DNA from: an uncultured Verrucomicrobiota bacterium
GTDB lineage: Bacteria > Verrucomicrobiota > Verrucomicrobiia > Methylacidiphilales > UBA1321
Direction: 5' to 3'
Assembly: GCA_903863295.1 (NCBI GenBank)
Contig: CAIPBM010000112.1
Coordinates: 1-64,000 of the forward strand
Length of the DNA: 64,000 nucleotides
Shown: in pieces, positions 1,980 to 43,652 of the stretch
How positions within the stretch are numbered: position 1 is the first letter of the stretch
Layout of the letters: the number at the start of each line of letters is the position of its first letter
Translations under genes and position numbers: made by a program
Notes under the pieces: model-generated
The model's database searches: none
Seen by the model: only the letters and a program-made list of their open reading frames with translations
Told to the model about the DNA's origin: nothing

Positions 1980-2585
1980 ATGATGTATCAGGTGCTTCAG
2001 TTTGTAGCGGCGGTCTATGACCGTCGTTCGGATTTCGGGGACAATTTCGGCGACGGTCATAGACCGCCACTACAGGGGAGGGCATTTCGACTCGGCGTTC
2101 TGTTGGCCTTGTGTCTGCCCGCCTTTGGCCTGGCGCAAAACGTACCGCCTGCGGCGGGCACGCCGCAATCGCTGCCCACGGTCACGCTGCATATTGGCAA
2201 GGCGACGCTCAACACGCAGATCGCCGCGACGGCCACTCAGCGCGAGATCGGCCTGATGTATGTCACCAAGCTGCCCGATAATGACGGCATGATCTTCCTC
2301 CTTGGCGATCCCGCGATCGCGACGTTCTGGATGAAGAATACGCTCATTCCACTGTCGGTCGCCTACATCGACAAGGACGGCGTCATCCGTGAAATCTACG
2401 ACATGGTGCCAGAAGACTTTTCCAAGCCCCATGTCGATTCCGATCTGCCCATTTACCGCAGCGAAAGCAACCAGATCTGCTATGCGCTGGAGACCAACCT
2501 TCATTGGTTCTCACTCAACGGCATCAAGCCGGGCACCAAGATTGATCCGCCGCCCGCCTCGCTGACCAAGATTGTCACTCCCTAA
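1980..2585 (+). CDS. DUF192 family exported protein, with repeat-derived N-terminus
   Basis: DUF192 proteins are small beta-rich proteins of unclear function, often exported. The body matches the family (REIGLMYV, GMIFLL, FWMKNTLIPLSVAYID, and a C-terminal region with SNQICYALE). The reading frame opens just after the lolC/E stop; an AGGA six bases upstream favours the ATG at 1980. Codons 9-32 or so are entirely palindromic repeat A (2003-2074), read as AAVYDRR and DGHRPPLQ. A signal-peptide-like stretch (RLGVLLALCLPAFGLAQ) follows only after the repeat. Either the repeat is translated ahead of the signal peptide, or initiation uses a non-ATG codon near 2100. Confidence 0.8.
   Translation: MMYQVLQFVAAVYDRRSDFGDNFGDGHRPPLQGRAFRLGVLLALCLPAFGLAQNVPPAAGTPQSLPTVTLHIGKATLNTQIAATATQREIGLMYVTKLPDNDGMIFLLGDPAIATFWMKNTLIPLSVAYIDKDGVIREIYDMVPEDFSKPHVDSDLPIYRSESNQICYALETNLHWFSLNGIKPGTKIDPPPASLTKIVTP
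2003..2074. repeat. Interspersed palindromic repeat, family A (full element)
   Basis: Two 24-base arms, 2003-2026 and 2051-2074, are inverted copies with one mismatch. They share the core GGCGGTCTATGACCGTC and end in TGTAG/CTACA. The 24-base spacer is not conserved in the other copies. A second full element lies at 43587-43652 and single arms at 31823-31846 and 32201-32215. This copy lies inside the 5' end of the DUF192 reading frame and stays in frame. Confidence 0.85.
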
Positions 2586-2598
2586 CCTTACTGACGCC

Positions 2599-3384
2599 AT
2601 GCCACTTCCCATCGATTACCACATGCATCCGCAGGCCCACAGCATCAAGCCTTACACCCCGGAATTGCTGCAACCCTGGGCCGATACCGCCCGTCAGCGC
2701 GGCCTGAAGGAAATCGCCTTCACCGACCACGACCGCTATTACGAGGGGGTCGATTTCGACCAGATCGACAAGCTTCGCGAGGCGAATCCCGACGTGAAAA
2801 TTCTCGCCGGCATTGAGCTCGATAACGATCCGGTCAGCGGCAGGGCAGGTCGCGCCTGGGTGGAGAAGAATTGGGATCGGCTCGACTTCGTGCTCGGCTC
2901 GGCCCATTACCTGCCGGGGGATCCGGAGATGTTCGATCAGGTCACCCGCAAAGATGAGTTCGCCCAGCGCGATATCGCTGCCGATTGCGTGAAATATGTC
3001 GCGGAGCTGAACGGGATGATCGACCGGGGGGGCATTGATACGCTCTCACATCTCGACCTGATGAAGATTCACGGCGTCTGGCATCCTGAGGGCGGACTCC
3101 TGCCACACTTCCAGTCTTTATTGGAACGGATCAGCCGGGAAGGCCTCGCCATTGAGATCAGTACCGCTGGCTGGCGCAAACCGGTAGGTGAGCAATATCC
3201 GCATGTGGACCTCATCCGCGAGGCGCAGCGGCTGGGTATTCCCTTTACCCTCGCCAGTGATGCCCATTCTCACGCACAATTGGCGGAGGAGTATGGACGT
3301 CTCTCGGAACTGCTCAAGCAACTCGGCATTCGTGAAGTGGCCTCCTACGAGAAACACCGCCGCCGCATGATTCCCCTCGACTGA
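2599..3384 (+). CDS. PHP-domain phosphoesterase, histidinol-phosphatase-like
   Basis: Metal-dependent PHP-fold hydrolase, closest in pattern to HisJ/HisK histidinol-phosphate phosphatases. Visible metal-ligand motifs in order: DYHMH near the N-terminus, FTDHD, AGIELD, GSAHYLP, SHLDLMK, EISTAGWRKP and a C-terminal ASDAHSH. At about 260 residues it is the usual length. I take the ATG at 2599; an upstream in-frame ATG at 2572 would overlap the DUF192 gene by 14 bases. No other histidine-biosynthesis gene is in the window, so the substrate is inferred and a different phosphoester is possible. Confidence 0.82.
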   Translation: MPLPIDYHMHPQAHSIKPYTPELLQPWADTARQRGLKEIAFTDHDRYYEGVDFDQIDKLREANPDVKILAGIELDNDPVSGRAGRAWVEKNWDRLDFVLGSAHYLPGDPEMFDQVTRKDEFAQRDIAADCVKYVAELNGMIDRGGIDTLSHLDLMKIHGVWHPEGGLLPHFQSLLERISREGLAIEISTAGWRKPVGEQYPHVDLIREAQRLGIPFTLASDAHSHAQLAEEYGRLSELLKQLGIREVASYEKHRRRMIPLD

Positions 3385-8466: not shown

Positions 8467-9363
8467 ATGGCCAACTCTCCCCGCATTCTTGTTGTCGGCA
8501 GTTCCAATACCGACCTCGTTCTCTCCTGTCCGGCCCTGCCGCGTCCCGGCGAAACACTGCTTGGTGGCGAGTTCCAGCGTCATCAGGGAGGCAAGGGAGC
8601 CAATCAGGCCGTGGCGGCCGCCCGGGCCGGGGGTAACGTGGTATTTATCGGGGCACGGGGAGACGATGACTTTGGTCGCGCGGCCTCGGCATCGCTTAAA
8701 GGTGAGGGGATTAACGTCCGTCATTTCATCGCCAAGCCAGGACTCTCCAGCGGCGTCGCCCTCATTCTACTCGGTGGAAAATCCCGGGAAAACATCATCG
8801 GCGTGGCCAAGTCGGCCAATGACGCCCTGACCCTCAGCGATCTCCGAGCTGTCAAGTCCGAGTTCGCCAAAGCCGCGGTCATTGTGGCCCAATTGGAAAC
8901 GCCGCTTCCCGTGGTGATGGAAGCGGCCCGGCTTGCAAAGCATCATCATATTCCGTTTCTGCTCAATCCTGCCCCTGCGCGCGAGTTACCCGCTTCCCTG
9001 CTCAAGCTGGTTCACACGCTGACGCCCAATGAACATGAAGCCACAGCGATGACAGGCGAGAGAGAGCCTCATCGTGCCGCCCATCGTTTGCTTGAAAAAG
9101 GATGCCGCCAGGTTGTAGTCACCCTTGGGGCCAAGGGGGCACTTCTCGTCGATAACACCGGGGTCTACGCTTTCGCCGCTCCCAAGGTGAAGCCAGTTGA
9201 TACCGTCGGTGCCGGCGATTGCTTCTCCGGCTGGTTGGCCATGGGCATTGCGGAGAAATTGCCGATTGCTGCCGCCATCACCCGCGCCCTGCGAGCCGCC
9301 TCGCTTTCGGTTACGCGCCATGGCGCTCAGCCCGGCATGCCTTTCCGCCGCGAGGTAGCCTAG
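8467..9363 (+). CDS. rbsK: Ribokinase-type PfkB sugar kinase
   Basis: Carbohydrate kinase of the PfkB family, about 298 residues, the usual length. It has the N-terminal signature region RHQGGKGANQAVAAARAG (ribokinase style) and the C-terminal catalytic motif DTVGAGDCFSGWLA with the base Asp. NPAPARELP and TPNEHEA also match ribokinases. It would phosphorylate ribose or another sugar with ATP in the cytoplasm. No ribose transporter is adjacent, so the ribose assignment is by similarity only. It ends a probable GMC-aquaporin-VOC-kinase cluster. Confidence 0.82.
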   Translation: MANSPRILVVGSSNTDLVLSCPALPRPGETLLGGEFQRHQGGKGANQAVAAARAGGNVVFIGARGDDDFGRAASASLKGEGINVRHFIAKPGLSSGVALILLGGKSRENIIGVAKSANDALTLSDLRAVKSEFAKAAVIVAQLETPLPVVMEAARLAKHHHIPFLLNPAPARELPASLLKLVHTLTPNEHEATAMTGEREPHRAAHRLLEKGCRQVVVTLGAKGALLVDNTGVYAFAAPKVKPVDTVGAGDCFSGWLAMGIAEKLPIAAAITRALRAASLSVTRHGAQPGMPFRREVA

Positions 9364-29228: not shown

Positions 29229-29285
29229 GTTCAGTGGTAACCGTTGTGCGCCGCGCAACGGGTCGCGTCAGCGACTCCATATAAT

Positions 29286-29449
29286 TCCGTCATCCTGAGC
29301 TTGTCGAAGGATCAGCTCCCCGTGATGGACTAATTCTTAAATAACGTGCGGATCGAAGTGTCCAAAGAGGAAGTTTCACCACTGAGTGCGTTACTGCAAA
29401 CGTGAGCATTTTACGGAGGCTGATCCTTCGACAAGCTCAGGATGACGAA
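29286..29449. repeat. Interspersed palindromic repeat, family B, between ssb and recG
   Basis: Left arm 29286-29316 contains CATCCTGAGCTTGTCGAAGG; right arm 29419-29449 is its inverted copy. The arms match over about 30 bases and are separated by about 100 bases of unrelated sequence. The 336 bases between ssb and recG hold no gene. The same arms recur at 31704-31811 and, in variant form, at 40317-40356. Confidence 0.85.
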
Positions 29450-29564
29450 TTGTTTACCGATGAACTTTTTGCAGAGTTCACACAAGGATCAGCTTTCCTC
29501 AAGTTCCCAAATCCCGCATGCTCACGTCCGGTCATGAAAAGCCCGACATGACCCTCGATTAACT

Positions 29565-31700: not shown

Positions 31701-31703
31701 GTT

Positions 31704-31811
31704 TCCGTCATCCTGAGCTTGTCGAAGGATCAGCCACCAGTGATTTGGGAATTACCTGCTCATGTCACAAACCAATGGAAGCTGATCCTTCGATAAGCTC
31801 AGGATGACGGA
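31704..31811. repeat. Interspersed palindromic repeat, family B, after recG
   Basis: Arms 31704-31734 and 31781-31811 are inverted copies with one mismatch, containing CATCCTGAGCTTGTCGAAGG as in the element before recG. The left arm begins three bases after the recG stop. The spacer of 46 bases differs from the other element's. Confidence 0.85.
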
Positions 31812-31822
31812 GTTTTTGAGTG

Positions 31823-31846
31823 CGACGGTCATAGACCGCCGCTACA
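31823..31846. repeat. Family A repeat, single arm, upstream of the HIT gene
   Basis: A 24-base arm (GACGGTCATAGACCGCCGCT within it) matching the right arm of the full element at 2051-2074. It ends nine bases before the HIT start codon and occupies the place where a ribosome site would be. Confidence 0.8.
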
Positions 31847-43586: not shown

Positions 43587-43652
43587 TGTAGCGGCGGTCT
43601 ATGACCGTCGCCAACGAAGCAAAAGACACGGCGGTCACAGACCGACACTACA
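43587..43652. repeat. Interspersed palindromic repeat, family A (second full element)
   Basis: Left arm 43587-43610 is identical to the left arm at 2003-2026. The right arm 43629-43652 differs from the 2051-2074 arm at three positions. The 18-base spacer is unrelated. It lies in the gap between the end of the CPBP protease gene and the start of thiL. Confidence 0.82.

Follow-up and report, generated by a model that had tools for sequence, protein, structure and literature searches.

The window, as we refer to the whole 64,000-nucleotide stretch of DNA that was analyzed, carries three consecutive genes near its start, all on the forward strand. The first (671-1972) encodes an FtsX/MacB-like permease with Pfam matches to FtsX (4.3e-15) and MacB_PCD (4.8e-13), and ends in ...ALRYE* with a TAG stop codon at 1970-1972. 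It is followed by an ORF which in its longest form spans 1965-2585 (206 aa, dicodon score 144.2) and matches Pfam DUF192 (1.9e-25), and then by a PHP-domain gene at 2572-3384, assigned from the ORF list and Pfam. The DUF192 domain at 2214-2546 (Pfam residues 84-194) is intact, scoring 89.3 bits against a PF02643 cut-off of 27. In comparisons with seven relatives the mature domain exhibited dN values of 0.19-0.36 versus dS values of 0.88-1.73, with dN/dS ratios of 0.16-0.37 that span the whole divergence, beyond the time since the insertion described below. Upstream of the domain, hydropathy analysis revealed a hydrophobic core, VLLALCLPAF (2097-2126), with a charge of +2 in the eight preceding residues, and these were assigned to a putative Sec signal peptide. 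In an AlphaFold model, block means were 81-97 over residues 61-200, except for two blocks (residues 141-160) at 71-72. The first 60 residues of the model scored 47-65, low values which fit a disordered extension followed by a signal peptide and are no proof of translation.

A palindromic repeat at 2003-2074 was originally predicted to lie in frame inside the DUF192 gene, and the ORF at 1965-2585 indeed crosses it without a stop. The element is a GTAG-tagged REP dimer (REPIN), made of two inverted copies of the consensus TGTAGCGGCGGTCTATGACCGTCG which are stop-free in the DUF192 frame and separated by a 24-nt spacer (2027-2050). The left unit, on the forward strand at 2003-2026, is TGTAGCGGCGGTCTATGACCGTCG and is read as VAAVYDRR. 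The right unit, on the reverse strand at 2051-2074, differs from the inverted consensus by one base, and the gene strand here reads GDGHRPPLQ. GTAG begins at 2004 and the opposing CTAC ends at 2073; the edges of the insert can be placed only to within a few bases, since the positions adjacent to GTAG, often CAGYCT or CCCCT when the aligned units were compared by eye, are partly conserved in the family. Translation of the ORF across the REPIN gives VAAVYDRRSDFGDNFGDGHRPPLQ, and both VYDRR and SDFGDNFGDGHR are stretches of the predicted DUF192 precursor. On the 3' side is a partly conserved family flank, GGGGAGG (2075-2081, forward strand), which is Shine-Dalgarno-like, although no start codon is suitably spaced from it.

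The 72-nt REPIN folded as one hairpin at -48.8 kcal/mol (z = -9.8), and none of 200 shuffles was equally stable. Rfam returned five matches, all microRNA families far below their gathering scores and the best scoring 29.1 against 99; these were disregarded because any long hairpin can yield such matches. The unit pattern, with up to three mismatches, produced 5 matches in the window compared with a mean of 0.02 in 100 shuffles. The other copies of the same REP in the window were a dimer at 43588-43651 and a single unit at 31826-31845. A different repeat around CCTGAGCTTGTCGAAGGATCAG was observed in both orientations at 29285-29455 and 31703-31817.

Across the 4.1-Mb genome from which the window derives, a 19-nt unit pattern with up to two mismatches gave 134 matches (71+63), compared with 2 (1+1) for the reversed control. 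The family was found in all eight genomes of the genus, with 12 to 252 matches each against 0 to 5 in controls, and was rare in G002 (12 versus 3 control matches) and G004 (12 versus 2). With up to three mismatches, at least 113 unit sites were counted over the fetched stretches plus the window, a set that covers all but about 20 of the 134 genome matches. In 111 aligned units each GTAG base was 97% conserved, a figure to be read with the fact that the 19-nt search pattern itself includes GTAG and allowed up to three mismatches. A T preceded GTAG in 95% of these units, and GTAG was followed by CGGCGGTC-TAT-GACCGTCG, in which CGGCGGTC and GACCGTCG form, by eye on the consensus, a stem of eight pairs including one G-T around a TAT loop. 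Head-to-head dimers accounted for 22 of the 91 elements in the fetched stretches and the window. By a simple dicodon gene caller in which the longest start was used, 75 of the 91 elements lay between predicted genes or at contig ends, 8 across ORF ends and 8 inside ORFs. The genome also encodes a RAYT, a 154-aa ORF on contig C49 (9155-9619) which is flanked by inverted REPs at 9128 (+) and 9629 (-), scores 92.4 bits against a cut-off of 80 with the NCBIfam RAYT model NF047646 and matches the solved TnpArep structure PDB 4er8 (E value of 5e-6). Two further Y1_Tnp genes (contigs C14 and C40) were below the NF047646 cut-off.

The original prediction had offered two outcomes for the repeat, an N-terminal extension ahead of the signal peptide or a forced downstream non-ATG start. 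The complete set of in-frame ATG, GTG and TTG codons between 1965 and 2127 comprises 1965, 1980, 1983, 1992 (GTG) and 2103 and 2109 (both TTG), with none from 2003 to 2102, that is, from the repeat through to the core. The ATG at 1965 says little because it belongs to the TATGAA-stop with which the FtsX gene ends, a feature common to the relatives. The likeliest starts are the two adjacent ATGs at 1980 and 1983 (1980-1985), 5' of the repeat. They lie 7 and 10 nt past the FtsX stop and are preceded by AGGA (1971-1974), a putative Shine-Dalgarno-like motif 5 nt before the first and 8 nt before the second.

Comparison with strains that lack the repeat had been proposed; here the gene was compared with same-genus relatives. 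In all seven same-genus relatives (G001-G007), each represented by its best DUF192 match (G005 has a second, weaker one), the DUF192 gene directly follows an FtsX-like gene ending in LRYE*. No REP was found at the DUF192 start in any of the seven when -250 to +200 was searched with up to four mismatches, apart from one match in G005 which had four mismatches and no GTAG tail and was rejected as probably due to chance. The likely starts in G001-G006 are 9, 7, 9, 21, 18 and 18 nt past the FtsX stop, respectively, so that the ATGs at 1980 and 1983 are favored here by six of the seven relatives. Measured from ATG 1983 the hydrophobic core begins at residue 39, versus residues 3-12 from the likely starts in the seven relatives. 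By eye, MRSIFLYPLRLALLVGLCLPLWAQ of G003 can be aligned with the residues flanking the insert on either side, the protein studied here reading MYQVL-[insert]-AFRLGVLLALCLPAFGLAQ. An alignment of 14 sequences, in which the starts of the 13 orthologs were picked by hand, showed that only this protein has a long block after the initiator Met and ahead of the hydrophobic core; a sequence from another family of the order (L017) had a few extra residues before the core. Outside metagenome contigs, no closely related strain of this species turned up.

The seventh relative, G007, differs in that its likely DUF192 start is 88 nt past the FtsX stop. Its junction contains a repeat, GTAGCCGCCRCTGTCCCTAGCGGYGG (G007:C20:31675-31700), that belongs to a second GTAG-like family, and an ATG follows at 31707. 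This family gave 109 matches in G007 with up to three mismatches, compared with 0 in the control, and 59 in the genome studied here. The G007 reading frame is also open upstream through the repeat, and in this longer form the hydrophobic core is at residue 22; with the ATG six bases past it, the G007 repeat may be untranslated. The occurrence of two unrelated repeats at the FtsX-DUF192 junction suggests that the site is permissive.

Similarly, the REPIN at 2003-2074 could be a 5' untranslated hairpin, with translation starting at TTG 2103 or CTG 2100, perhaps aided by the GGGGAGG flank. The resemblance of this purine-rich flank to a Shine-Dalgarno site and the G007 repeat that stops short of its ATG speak for such a start, as does the judgment in excerpts of Di Nocera et al. 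(PMC3733652) that most N-terminal REPs of P. putida, C. koseri and S. maltophilia are possibly extragenic. Against it, in-frame ATG, GTG and TTG codons are absent from 2003-2102, and TTG 2103 is 21 nt past the purine run, within the hydrophobic core, and by hydropathy and charge a start there would remove the positively charged n-region. We therefore consider the untranslated hairpin unlikely. An extended n-region is favored instead because of the start distances in relatives, the lack of internal start codons, the position of the core and the +2 charge. Thus, of the two predicted outcomes the N-terminal extension was supported, by the relatives' starts and AGGA, and the downstream non-ATG start was disfavored. 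Judging from the sequence, the REPIN probably sits in the signal-peptide n-region of the DUF192 protein and is translated.

A search of proteins for AVYDRR and GHRPPLQ had been suggested. The peptide of DUF192 recurs, with its frame unchanged, in MutL and Mfd. The MutL linker, which joins the ATPase/transducer part to the C-terminal domain, reads VAAV(Y/D)DRR ... (G/A)HRPP. Both REP arms were found in 5 of 7 genomes (the genome studied here, G001, G005, G006 and G007), a count that leaves out G003, where only residues 1-175 were available, and they are read in the same frame as in DUF192. The MutL REPIN of the genome studied here is at L044:3609-3688 on contig C5, and those of relatives include L135-L138. 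Among genomes the MutL arms are nearly identical, and the spacer varies in sequence and length. G002 MutL has only VAATYDRR, a decayed left arm that departs from the consensus unit at 7 bases; 4 of these changes are synonymous and the other 3 are in one codon. The G004 linker has no REP arm. In Mfd, a single in-frame REP, the right arm GHRPPLQ, was present in 2 of 7 genomes (the genome studied here, L082:1203-2669 on contig C29, and G007, L144), leaving out G005 with its weak match to residues 98-219; the frame is again that of DUF192. In the genome studied here the Mfd ORF reaches only 488 aa; it parts from its relatives ahead of the stop codon, close to one end of a small contig. No mention of AVYDRR or GHRPPLQ was found in the literature searched, and REP together with a signal peptide and an N-terminal extension was likewise not found there.

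A third protein has an arrangement like that of DUF192. In a BamE-like lipoprotein (L064:1893-2288, contig C54), a REP dimer lies between the likely start codon and the lipoprotein signal peptide, and the protein reads MKISSPVVVVDDRR...ATVIDRRYRGTLGLLICALLLTACGS. The context of its ATG is GTGACCGATG versus GCGACCGATG in G004 and G007, whose lipoprotein loci have no REP of the DUF192 family. GTAG starts 18 nt past the A of the ATG in the lipoprotein and 21 nt past that of ATG 1983 in DUF192. The parallel is less clean in that the left REP unit of the lipoprotein contains two in-frame GTG codons, after which no ATG, GTG or TTG occurs until the core; with the GTGs inside the left unit, most of the repeat would be translated from any of these starts. 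Lipoprotein N-termini were compared in G004, G007 and G005, and none was located for the homologs in G006, G001 and G002. The G005 paralogs have CCTGTAGCG after an early ATG and then another ATG, and may thus contain a REP remnant.

Four of the eight intra-ORF elements look real, namely those in DUF192, the BamE-like lipoprotein, MutL and Mfd (in its N-terminal part). The match at C62:282 was rejected as a chance partial match and that at C20:20547 for its doubtful 98-aa ORF; the repeats before RtcB (C111) and on C27, where an ATG after the repeat fits the real start, look extragenic. Eight of ten scanned ORFs running through other REPs had no Pfam family and were excluded from the intragenic class, the dicodon caller having kept only C27. 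In the relatives, 11 of 17 exact REP dimers were inspected, and 9 were in no ORF of at least 80 aa; of the other two, one was in a Pfam-matching ORF and one in ORFs of doubtful status (134 and 95 aa, L180). An 819-aa ORF of G005 (L176:179-2635, reverse strand) includes an in-frame REPIN read as NVAAVYDRR...DGHRPPLHF and has a weak match to a phage terminase gpA ATPase (28.4 bits, cut-off 25.6). When all 22 dimers were read in six frames, 33 of the 132 frames were stop-free, so that an open frame alone is unremarkable. In 12 of the 132 the length was also a multiple of three, which means that approximately 1 in 11 random insertions would keep a gene open, and selection against the rest suffices for four survivors.

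From what was seen in the sequence (the element, its family and frame, its absence in seven relatives and the lack of a start between repeat and core), we consider it probable that a RAYT-mobilized GTAG REPIN was inserted past the DUF192 start codon and is translated as an extension of the n-region. The RAYT would have moved the REPIN to this site, and the insert would comprise the two head-to-head REP units, 70-72 nt, and possibly a few flanking bases. The net insert would retain the reading frame, in which the REPIN is stop-free. Ribosomes would presumably start at ATG 1980 or 1983 and read through the hairpin, adding some 24-28 residues around VAAVYDRR...GHRPPLQ ahead of the intact hydrophobic core and DUF192 domain. 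The likeliest product would be a DUF192 precursor with a REPIN-derived n-region of 24-28 residues in its signal peptide, the mature protein probably being exported. Export would have to occur despite the long n-region, and the effect of the insertion may have been near neutral.

One feature that counts against this proposal is that the hairpin, at -48.8 kcal/mol, begins 20 nt past ATG 1983 and could depress translation. The insertion might then have silenced or strongly attenuated DUF192, through the hairpin by its start and a possible break of the FtsX-DUF192 transcript, leaving the gene to decay. The stable hairpin does begin 31 nt past the FtsX stop, and REPs between same-direction genes are described as often sitting close behind the upstream gene (PMC3733652, excerpts). 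On the other hand, the DUF192 ORF and domain are intact and the frame is retained, the hairpin starts close to the limit of the initiation footprint, and MutL and Mfd bear the same repeat in frame, making silencing quite improbable. An assembly or binning artifact, conceivable for a draft assembly of 194 contigs, is extremely unlikely given that 7 of 7 relatives share the FtsX-DUF192 order found on either side of the repeat and that the repeat makes up only a small fraction of the 89-kb contig. Beyond the insertion and translation favored here, it is a speculative suggestion, with little chance of being right, that REPINs are a recurrent, tolerated and perhaps useful add-on at signal-peptide n-regions, where the hairpin could tune translation and the peptide would be a disordered pre-signal extension. 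This would apply to two probably exported proteins of the genome, DUF192 and the BamE-like lipoprotein, in both of which GTAG begins at about the edge of the initiation footprint.

The elements resemble the GTAG REP superfamily (PMC3733652) in their GTAG tail, short stem and short loop, many copies, head-to-head dimers and RAYT association; here the terminal GTAG is unpaired, the stem of eight pairs falls within the 5-13 bp of the superfamily, most copies are intergenic and a RAYT gene is REP-flanked. This placement is by architecture, separately from the 24 family consensus sequences of PMC3733652. The lineage differs from those of the superfamily, two named relatives here being Candidatus Methylacidiphilales metagenome bins. 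The inverted REPs with a spacer forming one long hairpin and a RAYT in the genome also match the REPIN as defined by Bertels and Rainey (2011, PMC3116915). In P. fluorescens SBW25, by contrast, only 14 of the core 16-mers overlap genes, whereas the copy here lies within an ORF. The palindromic elements of Rickettsia (Ogata et al. 2000, 2002, as reviewed in PMC10969869) work alike, as palindromes that were inserted into protein genes with the frame kept and are translated into peptide; these are approximately 150 bp rather than 72 and from another organism group, and the present element is not a member. As for the host protein, it belongs to DUF192/COG1430 (PF02643) above cut-off, and has 24-28 extra residues before the core which are absent in the 7 same-genus orthologs.

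The DUF192 REPIN is therefore a new case of a known phenomenon, in that Di Nocera et al. (2013, PMC3733652) already described GTAG REPs lying in frame within genes, some of them at the N-terminus. There, in-gene REPs are more frequent at N-termini than at C-termini and most numerous in O. terrae (Verrucomicrobia), many of them in DNA repair genes; MutL and Mfd are both DNA repair genes as well. The DUF192 case is better supported than repeats with a following ATG, because no such codon is present and the start can be compared with relatives. The REP in DUF192 is thus hard to dismiss as the product of a misplaced start, the doubt raised over most N-terminal REPs in that survey, and together the DUF192 and MutL linker cases open the question of whether bacterial REPs are coding to direct proteomic tests.
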